A stretch of DNA of 24,969 nt from a virus, in IMG/VR virus record IMGVR_UViG_3300021962_000605, positions 1 to 24,969 of that record; one strand, given 5' to 3'. This document shows positions 3,712 to 7,833 of this stretch, piece after piece. Position 1 is the first letter of the stretch. Each line of letters starts with the position of its first letter. The position numbers and the translations under genes are program-made. The notes below the pieces were generated by a model. That model was not told the origin of the DNA. It made no database searches and saw only the letters and a list, made by a program, of their open reading frames with translations.

Positions 3712-6216
3712 TTAAAAAAATTCATCATCTGTCTTTTTTTCAATATTAAAATTATATAACTTTTTCCCTCCCGACCCTTTATCCCTCTTATTTTTTAACA
3801 TGATCCCTAAAATGGAACACGATTCTTCAATCCCCTTGGTAAACCTTTTTACACTATAATCCTTCTTTTCAAACCCACTCATTGTTATAAAATCATTATA
3901 TAATTGTTCTAACTTTATCCACCCTGGTTGCTCCTCATATACACTCATCAAAAACTCCAAAAACTCCTCTCCGAACTGCACCCTGATCTGCTTCCTTTTA
4001 ATTTTGTCACTCGACTTGACTTCCAGCACTCCAAAGTCAAGGTATCCCTGTACCGCTTCAAACATCAAATTATAGAACCGATTCCATTCGTCTTTGTCCC
4101 AATCGTCAAAAAGCTTATGTCCAAATTCATCCTCCGGAGTCCTGGTTGGCCCGAAATATCCGCTAAATTCCAACACTTTCTGCCTCCTTTTAGCATGGTT
4201 ACCAGAGTTAGGAATCGTATAATTCGTTGTAAACATCACCTTTGGTGAATCCTTATAAGGGATAAAAAGTTCATCTTTGTTCTTCTTCTCTACTGTGATA
4301 CCTTCTGTGATTATTGAGTAAAAACCCTCAAAATCCACGTTCCTTCGAGTGTCCTCAATCGCCAAGATCCTTGTATCAAGGTCAACCCTTTGAAAAGCAA
4401 ACGACTTGTCAAATTTGAAGTTCTTCCCATCCACCCGAACAATGTTCAAAAGGTAACCCAATGCCTTTACAAATATTCCCTTCCCAGTCCCACCACCATT
4501 GGCTTCCTTCTCAGTTTCTTCAGCCAGGATTACCGAGAATGGGCGTGATGGGTCTTTATAATTGTGCAATAAATAGCCTATCAACCCAAGAGCATAGATA
4601 TACCTATCTGTATCATTGTCCGAAATCCGTTCAATAAACCTAAAATATTCAATCTTCGCAAGTTCAATATCATCTTCAAGTACAATGAAATGGTCGATTA
4701 CTTGCGTTTTCCATACTACTTTACCCAATTCCCCATACGACCTAAGAGTTATTGCATTTTTTGCAACTACTACTACACCATTCTTGAACGGGAAAAAAGC
4801 TTCATCCTTGGTATCCTTTAGAAACTCCAAGTTTGCTCTATCAAAAAACTCAAAGTAGGCATCAGAGAAGAAAATGCTCGCACCTTTATAAATCAACTCC
4901 AACAAGTCTTGTGGCGTGACTCCTCCATCAAACGAGTCGGGTAGCTTGTCAATGTAGTCCTTTATAAACCTTTTTATCTGCTCCGTTGATGCCTCCTCCA
5001 CAAACCCATCCTTTACCCTGATCAACCTATAAATGGTTGACCCACTATCGTAGAAGTAAAGCCTAAACCCACCATTTGTGACTAAAAATACTTGCAATTT
5101 GTATCTATTTATAGATGCCACCCCTTTATCATCAACATCCCAGAACGTGCAAATCTCCTCTCCCCACCTTGCATCAAGTTCATCAACCATCACCTTTGCA
5201 TCTTCAACGCTTTTATTGTGTTTTTTAACTAAAATCGTAATCAAATCATCCTTAGATGCCCCATCATTCCTCTTGGTAAACAACTCCCTCTCTACCCTAT
5301 CACCGAAGGATGTTTTTTTTTCTCCAAACCCCAAGTCAAGCAGCTTTCGTGCAGCCAGTTTAAAGTCACCATCACATTCCAATATGGCAAAAACTGCACT
5401 AAGCTTATACCCTTTCTGTACTTGAAATGGGGTGTTCACCGAAAAAACGCTAAATAATCCCATTCCTACGTTCCATGATCCACTATGCTCGGCACCCGAC
5501 CCTGGTCTAAGAAAATAAATCCTCTCACTATTTTGCTTCACTACCTTCCAACCATTCCTCTGCATCAGGTCAACAATATCTCCACGCCTATTGTAATCAT
5601 CAAATGGCGATACCCCATACTCCTTGGTTGACGGCCTCTGGTGTGCTTCAATTACTTGCTCTTCAAATATCTCGTTGAATGACCGCATAATCTCAAACAA
5701 CACCTCTCGTTCATCCGATGTTATAACATTGATGCCTTCTTGCTCGACTTCATAACCCGATGTAGGCGGTGCAACAACATATCCACCTTCTCCCCTTGTT
5801 TCAATAATGCAATAAGATTTGATGGAAGGGTTATTCTTTGCCTCTTCCAATGTCGGTAGTCGTTGTGCAAGCTTTTGATTTGCTTCAATCGCCTCGCATT
5901 TATAGATGAGGTGTTTGCCATTACTTCTAGTTTTTACAATGTGTAGTTTAAGGAACAAATCGTGGGGAATTGCACCTTTTATAGCCTCCCATAGGTCATA
6001 CGTTTCGTATTTCGTATCAATGTCAATCACCTCAACATTACCACTTACCGACCCACAAATAATCGCCACTCCTTTTGCCCTATTATCTGACATTTGACGG
6101 CTTAATTCCTCCTTGCTTACCATTTGCTCTTGGTACACCTTCCAAGGGAAAATAGCCTGTTTATTTTCATTTACAGCAATAGTGTTGATGCCTTGTTCTA
6201 AGTATTTAGTTACCAT
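3712..6216 (-). CDS. Bifunctional primase-helicase (prim-pol plus SF3-like helicase)
   Basis: 834 residues. The N-terminal part is a prim-pol (archaeo-eukaryotic primase) domain: catalytic acidic pair in VEVIDIDTKY (D65, D67), the following histidine strand NGKHLIYK (H102) and GEGGYVVAPPTSG (142-154). A linker at about 270-300 (SAVFAILECDGDFKLAARKL) resembles the helical PriCT region. The C-terminal part is a P-loop helicase of the D5/SF3 type: Walker A GGGTGKG (574-580), acidic Walker B ILAIED (617-622), sensor TTNYT with N665, and likely arginine finger in AKRRQK (675-680). It should prime and unwind phage DNA at the fork. It overlaps the SNase-like gene by 7 bases upstream, and its 3' end abuts the candidate origin. 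Length fits phage primase-helicases of this architecture. The start is the first ATG, chosen because of the overlap. Confidence 0.9.
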   Translation of the reverse strand: MVTKYLEQGINTIAVNENKQAIFPWKVYQEQMVSKEELSRQMSDNRAKGVAIICGSVSGNVEVIDIDTKYETYDLWEAIKGAIPHDLFLKLHIVKTRSNGKHLIYKCEAIEANQKLAQRLPTLEEAKNNPSIKSYCIIETRGEGGYVVAPPTSGYEVEQEGINVITSDEREVLFEIMRSFNEIFEEQVIEAHQRPSTKEYGVSPFDDYNRRGDIVDLMQRNGWKVVKQNSERIYFLRPGSGAEHSGSWNVGMGLFSVFSVNTPFQVQKGYKLSAVFAILECDGDFKLAARKLLDLGFGEKKTSFGDRVERELFTKRNDGASKDDLITILVKKHNKSVEDAKVMVDELDARWGEEICTFWDVDDKGVASINRYKLQVFLVTNGGFRLYFYDSGSTIYRLIRVKDGFVEEASTEQIKRFIKDYIDKLPDSFDGGVTPQDLLELIYKGASIFFSDAYFEFFDRANLEFLKDTKDEAFFPFKNGVVVVAKNAITLRSYGELGKVVWKTQVIDHFIVLEDDIELAKIEYFRFIERISDNDTDRYIYALGLIGYLLHNYKDPSRPFSVILAEETEKEANGGGTGKGIFVKALGYLLNIVRVDGKNFKFDKSFAFQRVDLDTRILAIEDTRRNVDFEGFYSIITEGITVEKKNKDELFIPYKDSPKVMFTTNYTIPNSGNHAKRRQKVLEFSGYFGPTRTPEDEFGHKLFDDWDKDEWNRFYNLMFEAVQGYLDFGVLEVKSSDKIKRKQIRVQFGEEFLEFLMSVYEEQPGWIKLEQLYNDFITMSGFEKKDYSVKRFTKGIEESCSILGIMLKNKRDKGSGGKKLYNFNIEKKTDDEFF

Positions 6217-6566: not shown

Positions 6567-6839
6567 TCAATATTCCTTATAGCAATGTATGTCAATATCC
6601 TCAATACACGTCACCACTCTCGCAAAAACACCCATCTTGTTCAGCTTCTCAATCATATATTTCTGCAATTCCGATACCACCCCTTTATCAGTCTTAATCT
6701 CCAACATTATGACTACCCCTTTCCTAATTGCCATCAGGTCACAAATCCCAGGTGTTGAGGTGGCAATAAGCTTGGTAACAAACCACCCATGATCTTTTAG
6801 CTTCTTAGCTACTTTTGTTTGTAGTTGTGATTCTTTCAT
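6567..6839 (-). CDS. VRR-NUC domain nuclease (PD-(D/E)XK)
   Basis: 90 residues, the usual size of a minimal phage VRR-NUC protein. Features in order are an N-terminal helix ESQLQTKVAKKLKDHGWF, a GICDLMAIRKG loop with catalytic D34, and strand VVIMLEIKT with E47 and K49 (the ExK part). A helix beginning VSELQKYMIEKLNKMG and a final strand ARVVTCIEDI complete the fold. Family members act on branched or flapped DNA; a Holliday-junction or replication-fork role is likely but not shown. Its first 35 bases overlap the 3' end of the methyltransferase gene, so the two are co-transcribed. Confidence 0.85.
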   Translation of the reverse strand: MKESQLQTKVAKKLKDHGWFVTKLIATSTPGICDLMAIRKGVVIMLEIKTDKGVVSELQKYMIEKLNKMGVFARVVTCIEDIDIHCYKEY

Positions 6840-7833
6840 ATTGTTCTATTGCTTTAAATATTTGATAAACTACTTGCGGAACTATTGCATTTCCTCCTGC
6901 TTTGATGGATTCGTTTCGCCATTTAGGAAAGGTAATAGAGTCCAATCTGTCGGAAATCCCATCATTTCCAATACAAATTGGGGAGACAGATGGGAACGAG
7001 TCCCAAGCATTTCGTTGATATGACTGCCCAAATCGTCCCCTTTCCAATTTTCTGTTTTCCAATGCATCCTCTCGTCTGATGTTCTTGGTGTAGGCAACAT
7101 CCCCTTCAGTGCTAAAATATGGAGATTGGGTGATGGTATTTCCTTCCCTTCTTGTTCCATTCTCTTTTTCCTTGCTTCCCAAGTTTCCAAACTCTCCTGA
7201 ATTGTCAATGCCCTTGGTGTTGGTAGCAATCCCCTCAATGCCATTTGGTCGAGTGGCATCGTGAATGGTTTGTGACCTTTGTCTACCAATCTCTCCATTC
7301 TCTGGTCGTATGCCTCGAAGTTGGTTTGTTCTCTCGCTTGTGCGAGTGGAGTGGGCAACAAACCAGATTCTGTCCCTACGGTGTGGGGCGTTGACGGCAC
7401 AAGCTGGAAGTAGAAACGGTGTAATTTCGTAGCCTTCAGCTTCCAGGTCAGCTTGCACTTCATCGAATACCACCCCTCCATTCCAATTAGTAAGTCCGCG
7501 AACGTTTTCGCCCACGACCCAACGCGGTTGAATTTCTCGAATTGCTCTAAGCATTTCCGGCCAGAGGTGGCGGTCATCTTCTTTTCCAAGTCGTTTTCCT
7601 GCACTTGAGTATGGTTGACAAGGGAATCCTCCTGTGAGAATATCAATTCTGTTTGCATATTTAGTAAAGTTAGATTTTTTTATATCAGTAAATTGTTCAG
7701 CATTCGGCCAGTAGTGATGTAGGACTTTTTGCCCAAATTCATTCCATTCACAATGGAATTTATTCTCCCATCCCATCCATTCTGCTGCTAAATCAAATCC
7801 ACCAATACCTGAAAATAGTGATCCGTGAGTCAT
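6805..7833 (-). CDS. C5 cytosine DNA methyltransferase
   Basis: 342 residues. It transfers a methyl group from S-adenosylmethionine to cytosine C5 in a specific DNA site. Motifs: I LFSGIGGFDLA (6-16); II with E29; IV GGFPCQPYSSAG (68-79) with catalytic C72; VI VGENVRGL (107-114); VIII APHRRDRIWFVA (149-160); X GGNAIVPQ (313-320). The region between VIII and IX, the target-recognition part, is hydrophilic and low in complexity (about 163-280). No restriction endonuclease partner is visible, so it is probably an orphan phage methyltransferase that masks the phage DNA. It overlaps the 71-residue gene upstream by 4 bases (ATGA) and VRR-NUC downstream. Most of the gene also carries a second long open frame, described separately. 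Confidence 0.95.
   Translation of the reverse strand: MTHGSLFSGIGGFDLAAEWMGWENKFHCEWNEFGQKVLHHYWPNAEQFTDIKKSNFTKYANRIDILTGGFPCQPYSSAGKRLGKEDDRHLWPEMLRAIREIQPRWVVGENVRGLTNWNGGVVFDEVQADLEAEGYEITPFLLPACAVNAPHRRDRIWFVAHSTRTSERTNQLRGIRPENGEIGRQRSQTIHDATRPNGIEGIATNTKGIDNSGEFGNLGSKEKENGTRREGNTITQSPYFSTEGDVAYTKNIRREDALENRKLERGRFGQSYQRNAWDSFPSVSPICIGNDGISDRLDSITFPKWRNESIKAGGNAIVPQVVYQIFKAIEQYERITTTNKSS
6882..7658 (-). CDS. 258-codon ORF overprinted inside the methyltransferase gene
   Basis: This open frame lies entirely within the methyltransferase gene on the same strand, in the +1 frame. It has its own ATG; an in-frame stop lies only eight codons upstream. The product has clear repeats: GLLPTPLAQA (near 98), GLLPTPRALT (near 143) and GMLPTPRTSD (near 190). 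A segment rich in Lys and aromatic residues, LTWKLKATKLHRFYFQLVPS, precedes them, and the C-terminus is LSPQFVLEMMGFPTDWTLLP. From memory, sequences with WPTP/LPTP repeats and a final MMGFP..WT are widespread as hypothetical proteins near phage C5 methyltransferases, so this is probably a conserved overprinted gene and not chance. Function unknown; a partner or specificity factor of the methyltransferase is a guess. Confidence 0.5.
   Translation of the reverse strand: MQTELIFSQEDSLVNHTQVQENDLEKKMTATSGRKCLEQFEKFNRVGSWAKTFADLLIGMEGWYSMKCKLTWKLKATKLHRFYFQLVPSTPHTVGTESGLLPTPLAQAREQTNFEAYDQRMERLVDKGHKPFTMPLDQMALRGLLPTPRALTIQESLETWEARKKRMEQEGKEIPSPNLHILALKGMLPTPRTSDERMHWKTENWKGDDLGSHINEMLGTRSHLSPQFVLEMMGFPTDWTLLPFLNGETNPSKQEEMQ

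Follow-up and report, generated by a model that had tools for sequence, protein, structure and literature searches.

M.EcoHK31I is a two-subunit C5-cytosine DNA methyltransferase (YGGCCR), and both of its polypeptides are needed for activity (Lee et al. 1995, cited in PMC3404938). In PMC3404938, motifs I-VIII and X are placed on the large subunit and motif IX on the small subunit, and the predicted target-recognition domain (TRD) is assigned to the large subunit. In M.AquI-type split methyltransferases, the catalytic and recognition halves also lie on two polypeptides, with motifs IX and X together on a second, separate chain. The gene of the small subunit of M.EcoHK31I is, moreover, contained in that of the large one, in a different frame. 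In this study, we analysed a 24,969-bp virus record (the window) that comes from a tailed phage and contains genes for an endolysin, a tail fibre, the major tail protein, a tape measure and replication, and conclude that one of its genes very probably encodes, by dual coding, a two-subunit orphan C5-cytosine DNA methyltransferase whose TRD resides in the inner-frame protein, beta, rather than in the outer-frame catalytic protein, alpha.

By analogy, M.EcoHK31I is the nearest characterised precedent. Compared by description rather than by sequence, it shares with the window locus motifs I-VIII and X on the larger chain and motif IX on the smaller one, where motif IX is assigned to beta from actinophage homologues and its direct profile match is weak. 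In the window locus the gene of the small subunit is nested in that of the large one in another frame, as is reported for M.EcoHK31I. The two differ in that the TRD of M.EcoHK31I is assigned to the large subunit in PMC3404938, whereas here beta holds the LPTP region homologous to a TRD, and the corresponding stretch of the large subunit is a neutral linker. They differ also in that M.EcoHK31I belongs to a bacterial restriction-modification system, whereas the present enzyme is a phage one without a recognised restriction enzyme in the window. With the M.AquI-type enzymes and the pair gp81/gp80 of actinophage Melvin, the locus shares the division of catalytic and recognition halves between two polypeptides. 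In those, however, IX and X sit together on the second chain and the genes are consecutive, whereas here X is in the alpha frame and the two genes overlap by 777 nt. The single-chain enzymes Sanjuju gp4, Aggie gp53 and prophiT46-2 gp23 likewise combine a catalytic half (I-VIII) with an LPTP-repeat TRD and motif IX, but in one chain and one frame and without the N-terminal domain of beta. Paenibacillus larvae phage Shelly carries the same protein pair, gp55 and gp56 (PHROG 363 for alpha and PHROG 1008 for beta), and its annotators flagged the internal gene, naming gp56 'g55 internal gene'. In the literature searched, we found no account describing members of this phage family as dual-coded enzymes of two subunits, nor one of the selection pattern or of the putative single-chain ancestors.

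The alpha and beta reading frames of the window locus

The initial annotation had described an ATG-started frame of 258 codons in the +1 frame of a C5 methyltransferase gene on the same strand, preceded eight codons upstream by an in-frame stop, with three LPTP repeats in its product, and all of this agrees with the open reading frame list and the sequence (Table 1). The beta frame lies wholly within the alpha frame, its start offset by 175 nt (+1), and the +2 frame of the alpha gene has many stops. Along the DNA, the blocks I-VIII, TRD-IX and X follow the order of an ordinary C5 methyltransferase, with TRD-IX one base out of phase, and the end of alpha motif VIII (7354) nearly coincides with the start of the first LPTP repeat of beta (7361). 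Among the window ORFs scanned, no restriction enzyme was recognised, and the methyltransferase thus looks orphan. Directly 3' of its gene, at 6567-6839 (-), lies a 90-aa VRR-NUC/Hjc-like nuclease, which is probably a junction resolvase and may have an alternative role in restriction; VRR-NUC genes also occur near the methyltransferase in Bacteroides phages.

Table 1. Position, strand and basis of the features of the methyltransferase locus in the window
Feature	Position	Strand	Basis
Alpha, C5-cytosine DNA methyltransferase catalytic subunit, 342 aa, motifs I-VIII and X	6805..7833	(-)	PF00145, PHROG 363, AlphaFold
Alpha motifs I-VIII	7354..7818	(-)	sequence, invariant residues
Alpha motif I, LFSGIGGFDLA	7786-7818	(-)	sequence
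Alpha motif IV, GGFPCQPYSSAG	7597-7632	(-)	sequence; PCQ motif, catalytic Cys
Alpha motif VI, ENV	within 7492-7512	(-)	sequence
Alpha motif VIII, RRDRIWFVA	7354-7380	(-)	sequence
Alpha linker, residues 161-279	6997..7353	(-)	stop-free, neutral (dNN/dSN), predicted disordered
Alpha motif X, GNAIVPQVVYQIF, in C-terminal helix	6856..6894	(-)	sequence, AlphaFold
Beta, overprinted +1-frame gene, 258 aa, predicted DNA-recognition subunit (TRD and motif IX)	6882..7658	(-)	PHROG 1008, selection, start-codon test
Beta N-terminal domain, residues 1-99, over alpha motifs IV-VIII	7362..7658	(-)	both frames constrained
Beta target-recognition region	6990..7361	(-)	dNN/dNS 0.26, actinophage single-chain homology
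Beta LPTP repeats (three)	7341-7361, 7209-7229, 7080-7100	(-)	sequence
Beta motif IX-like segment, LSPQFVLEMMGFPTDWT, over alpha pre-X segment	6939..6989	(-)	both frames constrained

Alpha matches PF00145 (E 1.4e-44) and PHROG 363 (E 1.5e-71) and contains the catalytic half of the PF00145 family, namely motifs I, IV (PCQ), VI (ENV) and VIII; P70, C71, E108, N109, V110 and R154 are invariant in 64 aligned alpha sequences. The methyltransferase frame had been credited with all motifs of the family. It holds I-VIII and X only, and the TRD and motif IX, which in PF00145 members lie within the one chain between VIII and X, are not recognisable in it; both are in the +1 frame. A phmmer comparison of alpha with M.HhaI covered only residues 5-160. 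AlphaFold predicted a confident large domain and a motif X helix (residues 318-340) with high pLDDT, and pLDDT fell below 50 across nearly all of residues 184-300, a disordered loop of ~115 residues. Within positions 1-340 of this model, 210 residues aligned with M.HhaI (Z 24.4, rmsd 2.5; Foldseek E 9e-15), the helix 318-340 mapping onto the M.HhaI C-terminus. As modelled, alpha is the M.HhaI large domain plus motif X, with the small domain missing and a disordered loop in its place.

Beta had no match in Pfam or NCBIfam. Residues 4-240 of its 258 matched PHROG 1008 ('DNA methyltransferase') with E 4.6e-22, covering model positions 37-279 of 329. The N-terminal domain, for which no known relative was found, contains a LTWKLK...FYFQLVPS hairpin with strands predicted at 68-75 and 81-88. 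The motif IX-like segment includes MMGFPTDWT, and M232, G233, P235, W238 and T239 are nearly invariant in 106 beta sequences. AlphaFold gave a poor model of beta alone (pLDDT 68.5, pTM 0.32), and neither Foldseek with this weak model nor a sequence search returned a usable match in the PDB. Alignment of the beta profile with ordinary C5 methyltransferases by hhalign gave only a weak overlap at motif IX (probability 0.9%, E 0.063).

The identity of the C-terminal part of beta comes from actinophages. Three single chains, Gordonia phage Sanjuju gp4, Mycobacterium phage Aggie gp53 and prophiT46-2 gp23, contain I-VIII, then columns 97-210 of the beta profile, then X, all in one frame, with full-sequence E values at Z=1000 of 5e-15, 6e-12 and 1.5e-11, against a best E of 0.13 among 1,300 shuffles. 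In the split pairs Melvin gp81/80, Jarcob gp69/70 and PhluffyCoco gp42/43, all or most of I-VIII comes first and TRD-IX-X is in the second gene; PrincessTrina gp81/82 also matches. Because these enzymes have the same segment in frame between VIII and X, beta from about residue 97 on is shown, by sequence homology through this actinophage bridge, to correspond to the TRD and motif IX, in line with the earlier suggestion of a target-recognition module in the other frame. The N-terminal domain of beta (about residues 1-97) is absent from both single-chain and split relatives and therefore appears to have been added over alpha motifs IV-VIII. Altogether 556 phage records, almost all of them from actinophages, contain LPTP TRD-IX-X relatives as single-chain or split genes, annotated inconsistently as 'hypothetical protein' or 'DNA methylase'. 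The initial annotation had described LPTP/WPTP-repeat proteins as common beside phage C5 methyltransferases; for LPTP proteins this holds for some actinophages, where they follow the methyltransferase, whereas mostly they lie inside the methyltransferase gene.

Conservation and selection in the two frames

Scans for beta relatives by tblastn and by pattern yielded 365 in viral contigs (80 kept) and 69 in phage records. Beta lay in the +1 frame of alpha in all 85 first-round loci having both ORFs. When profiles of four modules (alpha N-half, alpha motif X, beta N-domain and beta motif IX) were run on 366 loci, the complete arrangement was found in 310, the others involving contig ends, weak motifs that were missed and register shifts. 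Modules in other registers occur at L091, L115, L184, L203, L419, L429, L433 and L435, some of which resemble single indels. In two viral scans queried with the alpha frame, the query covering the overlap and near relatives coming first, the beta N-domain was in the +1 frame at 160 of 160 loci, and in 136 of them one beta ORF extended as far as motif IX. A DNA pattern for EWLMG(F/Y)PxGWT alone hit places lying +1 to an alpha N-half in 70 of the 74 informative cases. The beta homologues in the +1 frame of methyltransferase genes show 27-79% identity, and +1-frame stops are rare in the related genes. Many related records annotate alpha alone, e.g. those of Bacteroides phages BKO1-TP3 and BS-TP4. 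A search with PHROG 1008 of 198 genomes of one phylum gave only 2 matches, one of them weak and 24 positions long. The closest cellular relatives are Bacteroidota, a plausible host group here. The negative control L497 (1192-2403; Methanobacteriales virus vir323) has a PHROG 116 C5 methyltransferase in an ordinary single frame with the canonical motif IX RRLTVREAARLQ.

For the selection analysis, substitutions in 48 phylogenetically independent pairs were classed as changing alpha, beta, both or neither, in an OLGenie-like count with bootstrap over pairs. With rates taken as uncorrected single-step counts, the beta frame 5' of the overlap had a dNN/dNS of 0.93 [0.71-1.18] and alpha a dNN/dSN of 0.16, like an ordinary gene. 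Over alpha motifs IV-VIII both frames were constrained (beta 0.42 [0.35-0.51]; alpha 0.16 [0.13-0.19]). Over the alpha linker beta stood at 0.26 [0.21-0.32] and alpha at 1.26 [1.11-1.42], both were again constrained over motif IX/pre-X (beta 0.34; alpha 0.40), and 3' of the overlap the values were 0.75 [0.61-1.01] and 0.24. Changes silent in alpha but not in beta occurred at ~60% of the control rate over IV-VIII and at ~20% over the linker, and this is the suppression of synonymous changes for which a check had been proposed. Within the linker, where alpha is neutral, the wobble moves to the beta frame; the amino acids of alpha are free to vary there and stops alone are excluded. The frame under selection changed at just the places predicted; this pattern was seen separately in 28 window-type and 20 other pairs, and again in a larger, non-independent set of 924 pairs. 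Beta is thus a conserved coding gene and not a by-product, and the conserved dual-coding locus proposed in the initial annotation, perhaps with a methyltransferase partner as its product, is borne out by +1 homologues and by selection in both frames. None of the three outcomes listed there as contradicting it occurred.

The start of beta was also examined. A stop-free reachable ATG 5' of the conserved beta core was present in 295 of 323 ORFs, about four times the 68 expected from synonymous recoding of alpha. Matches of at least 5 nt to the Shine-Dalgarno core preceded 24% of the beta ATGs, as compared with 4% at alpha control positions, and in L116, L128 and L146 AAAGGAG lies six to eight bases 5' of the ATG. 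No Shine-Dalgarno sequence was found before the beta ATG of the window; many Bacteroidota start translation without reliance on one.

Proposed mechanism and competing explanations

In our proposal, one mRNA would give both alpha and beta, the latter from the internal ATG in the +1 frame. Alpha would bind SAM and contribute the motif IV catalytic Cys, motifs VI and VIII and, past a meaningless disordered loop, motif X, and beta would supply its N-domain, target recognition (with the LPTP repeats) and motif IX. We infer that the two would assemble into a heterodimer methylating phage DNA at a sequence picked by beta, which would probably let the phage escape host restriction. The likely origin is a single-chain enzyme such as those of actinophages, whose TRD-IX part would have moved to the +1 frame between two compensating frame changes, beta then gaining its own start and N-domain. 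Somewhat more tentatively, we favour extending this to a whole family of C5 methyltransferases, very widespread among phages, that would be obligate dual-coded heterodimers. In these, the recognition domain would have left the single chain by a frame change, a new beta N-domain would have been overprinted on the catalytic motifs, the alpha linker would remain only as a stop-free tether to X, and one sub-clade would be phase-variable in both subunits through a repeat before motif IX.

Could the blocks be joined in one fused chain by two programmed ribosomal frameshifts, +1 after VIII and back before X, with no separate beta? The canonical order of the blocks along the DNA would fit, as would the first LPTP repeat beginning where VIII ends, but we consider this improbable. 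Beta has its own ATG far more often than expected together with the Shine-Dalgarno enrichment, its N-domain is under selection (dNN/dNS 0.42) yet would not be translated in a frameshift product, and only uninterrupted translation of alpha would be expected to keep a neutral alpha linker free of stops. It is just as unlikely that beta, albeit a real overprinted protein, has a function of its own, e.g. as a regulator or restriction inhibitor, and is not the recognition half. In favour, beta lacks a Pfam match, no relative of its N-domain is known and its role in methylation is a prediction; on the other hand, the C-terminal two-thirds of beta is an in-frame part of single-chain C5 methyltransferases, and alpha lacks exactly that part.

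Biased genes can have long +1 ORFs, and ordinary C5 methyltransferases reach 165 open +1 codons, so that the open frame might be taken for a by-product of codon usage or alpha conservation, or for a sequencing frameshift. This explanation can practically be dismissed, as the selection test already refutes it. When the overlap was recoded with the codon usage of the non-overlapping alpha N-terminus, the +1 frame was open in 0 of 20,000 recodings (mean 14.7 stops), and shuffling synonymous codons inside the alpha gene likewise gave 0 of 20,000, which rules out chance and codon bias; six ordinary single-chain C5 methyltransferases (SPR, Dcm and four phage enzymes) have 9-32 +1 stops each. Moreover, the wobble switches to the beta frame where alpha is neutral, and the frame is kept in homologues down to 27% identity. 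The intact state and conservation of the two ORFs also ruled out a sequencing frameshift or pseudogene in the window.

Few long, conserved overlaps in which two enzyme subunits are read out of frame with each other have been documented. With hundreds of loci, the frame read by selection becomes visible here base by base, including a chain kept open where its amino acids are irrelevant, and a two-subunit, dual-coded enzyme would provide a concrete route from a single chain to a heterodimer via a frame change. Phage genomes are also predicted to contain many recognition subunits that lack annotation, so that assays of the annotated methyltransferase gene alone may fail, and the specificity of these enzymes should be swappable via beta.

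Variant loci and repeat tracts

Several loci depart from the common arrangement. In L034 (3252-3765), L035 and L045, alpha is intact and beta is broken by a single in-frame stop, possibly reflecting inactivation, recoding or sequence error. L429 (about 4100-5100) encodes a C5 methyltransferase with a beta whose N-domain is of another type (SETWPRAGMTRSGTAYRLPPSAPL), the modules of the locus being distributed over three frames.

In a phage sub-clade that does not include the window, tracts of G8-9, (AG)8-9 or (AC)6 lie in the dual-coded linker, 65-87 nt 5' of motif IX, at a point where neither alpha nor beta is yet complete. The modules are in register in L162 and L193, one step out in L140, L141, L149, L152, L158, L164 and L353 and two steps out in L514, in which (AG)n is longer; L360 also bears a repeat. 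One slip would cut alpha from X and beta from IX together, and judging from these sequences the tracts may serve phase variation of both subunits at once. L141, L149, L152 and similar loci of this repeat-bearing clade contain an extra internal copy of the dual-coded motif IX/pre-X segment (NPxLxEWLMGYE in the beta frame, MADGLR in the alpha frame), which suggests a duplication of the recognition module.
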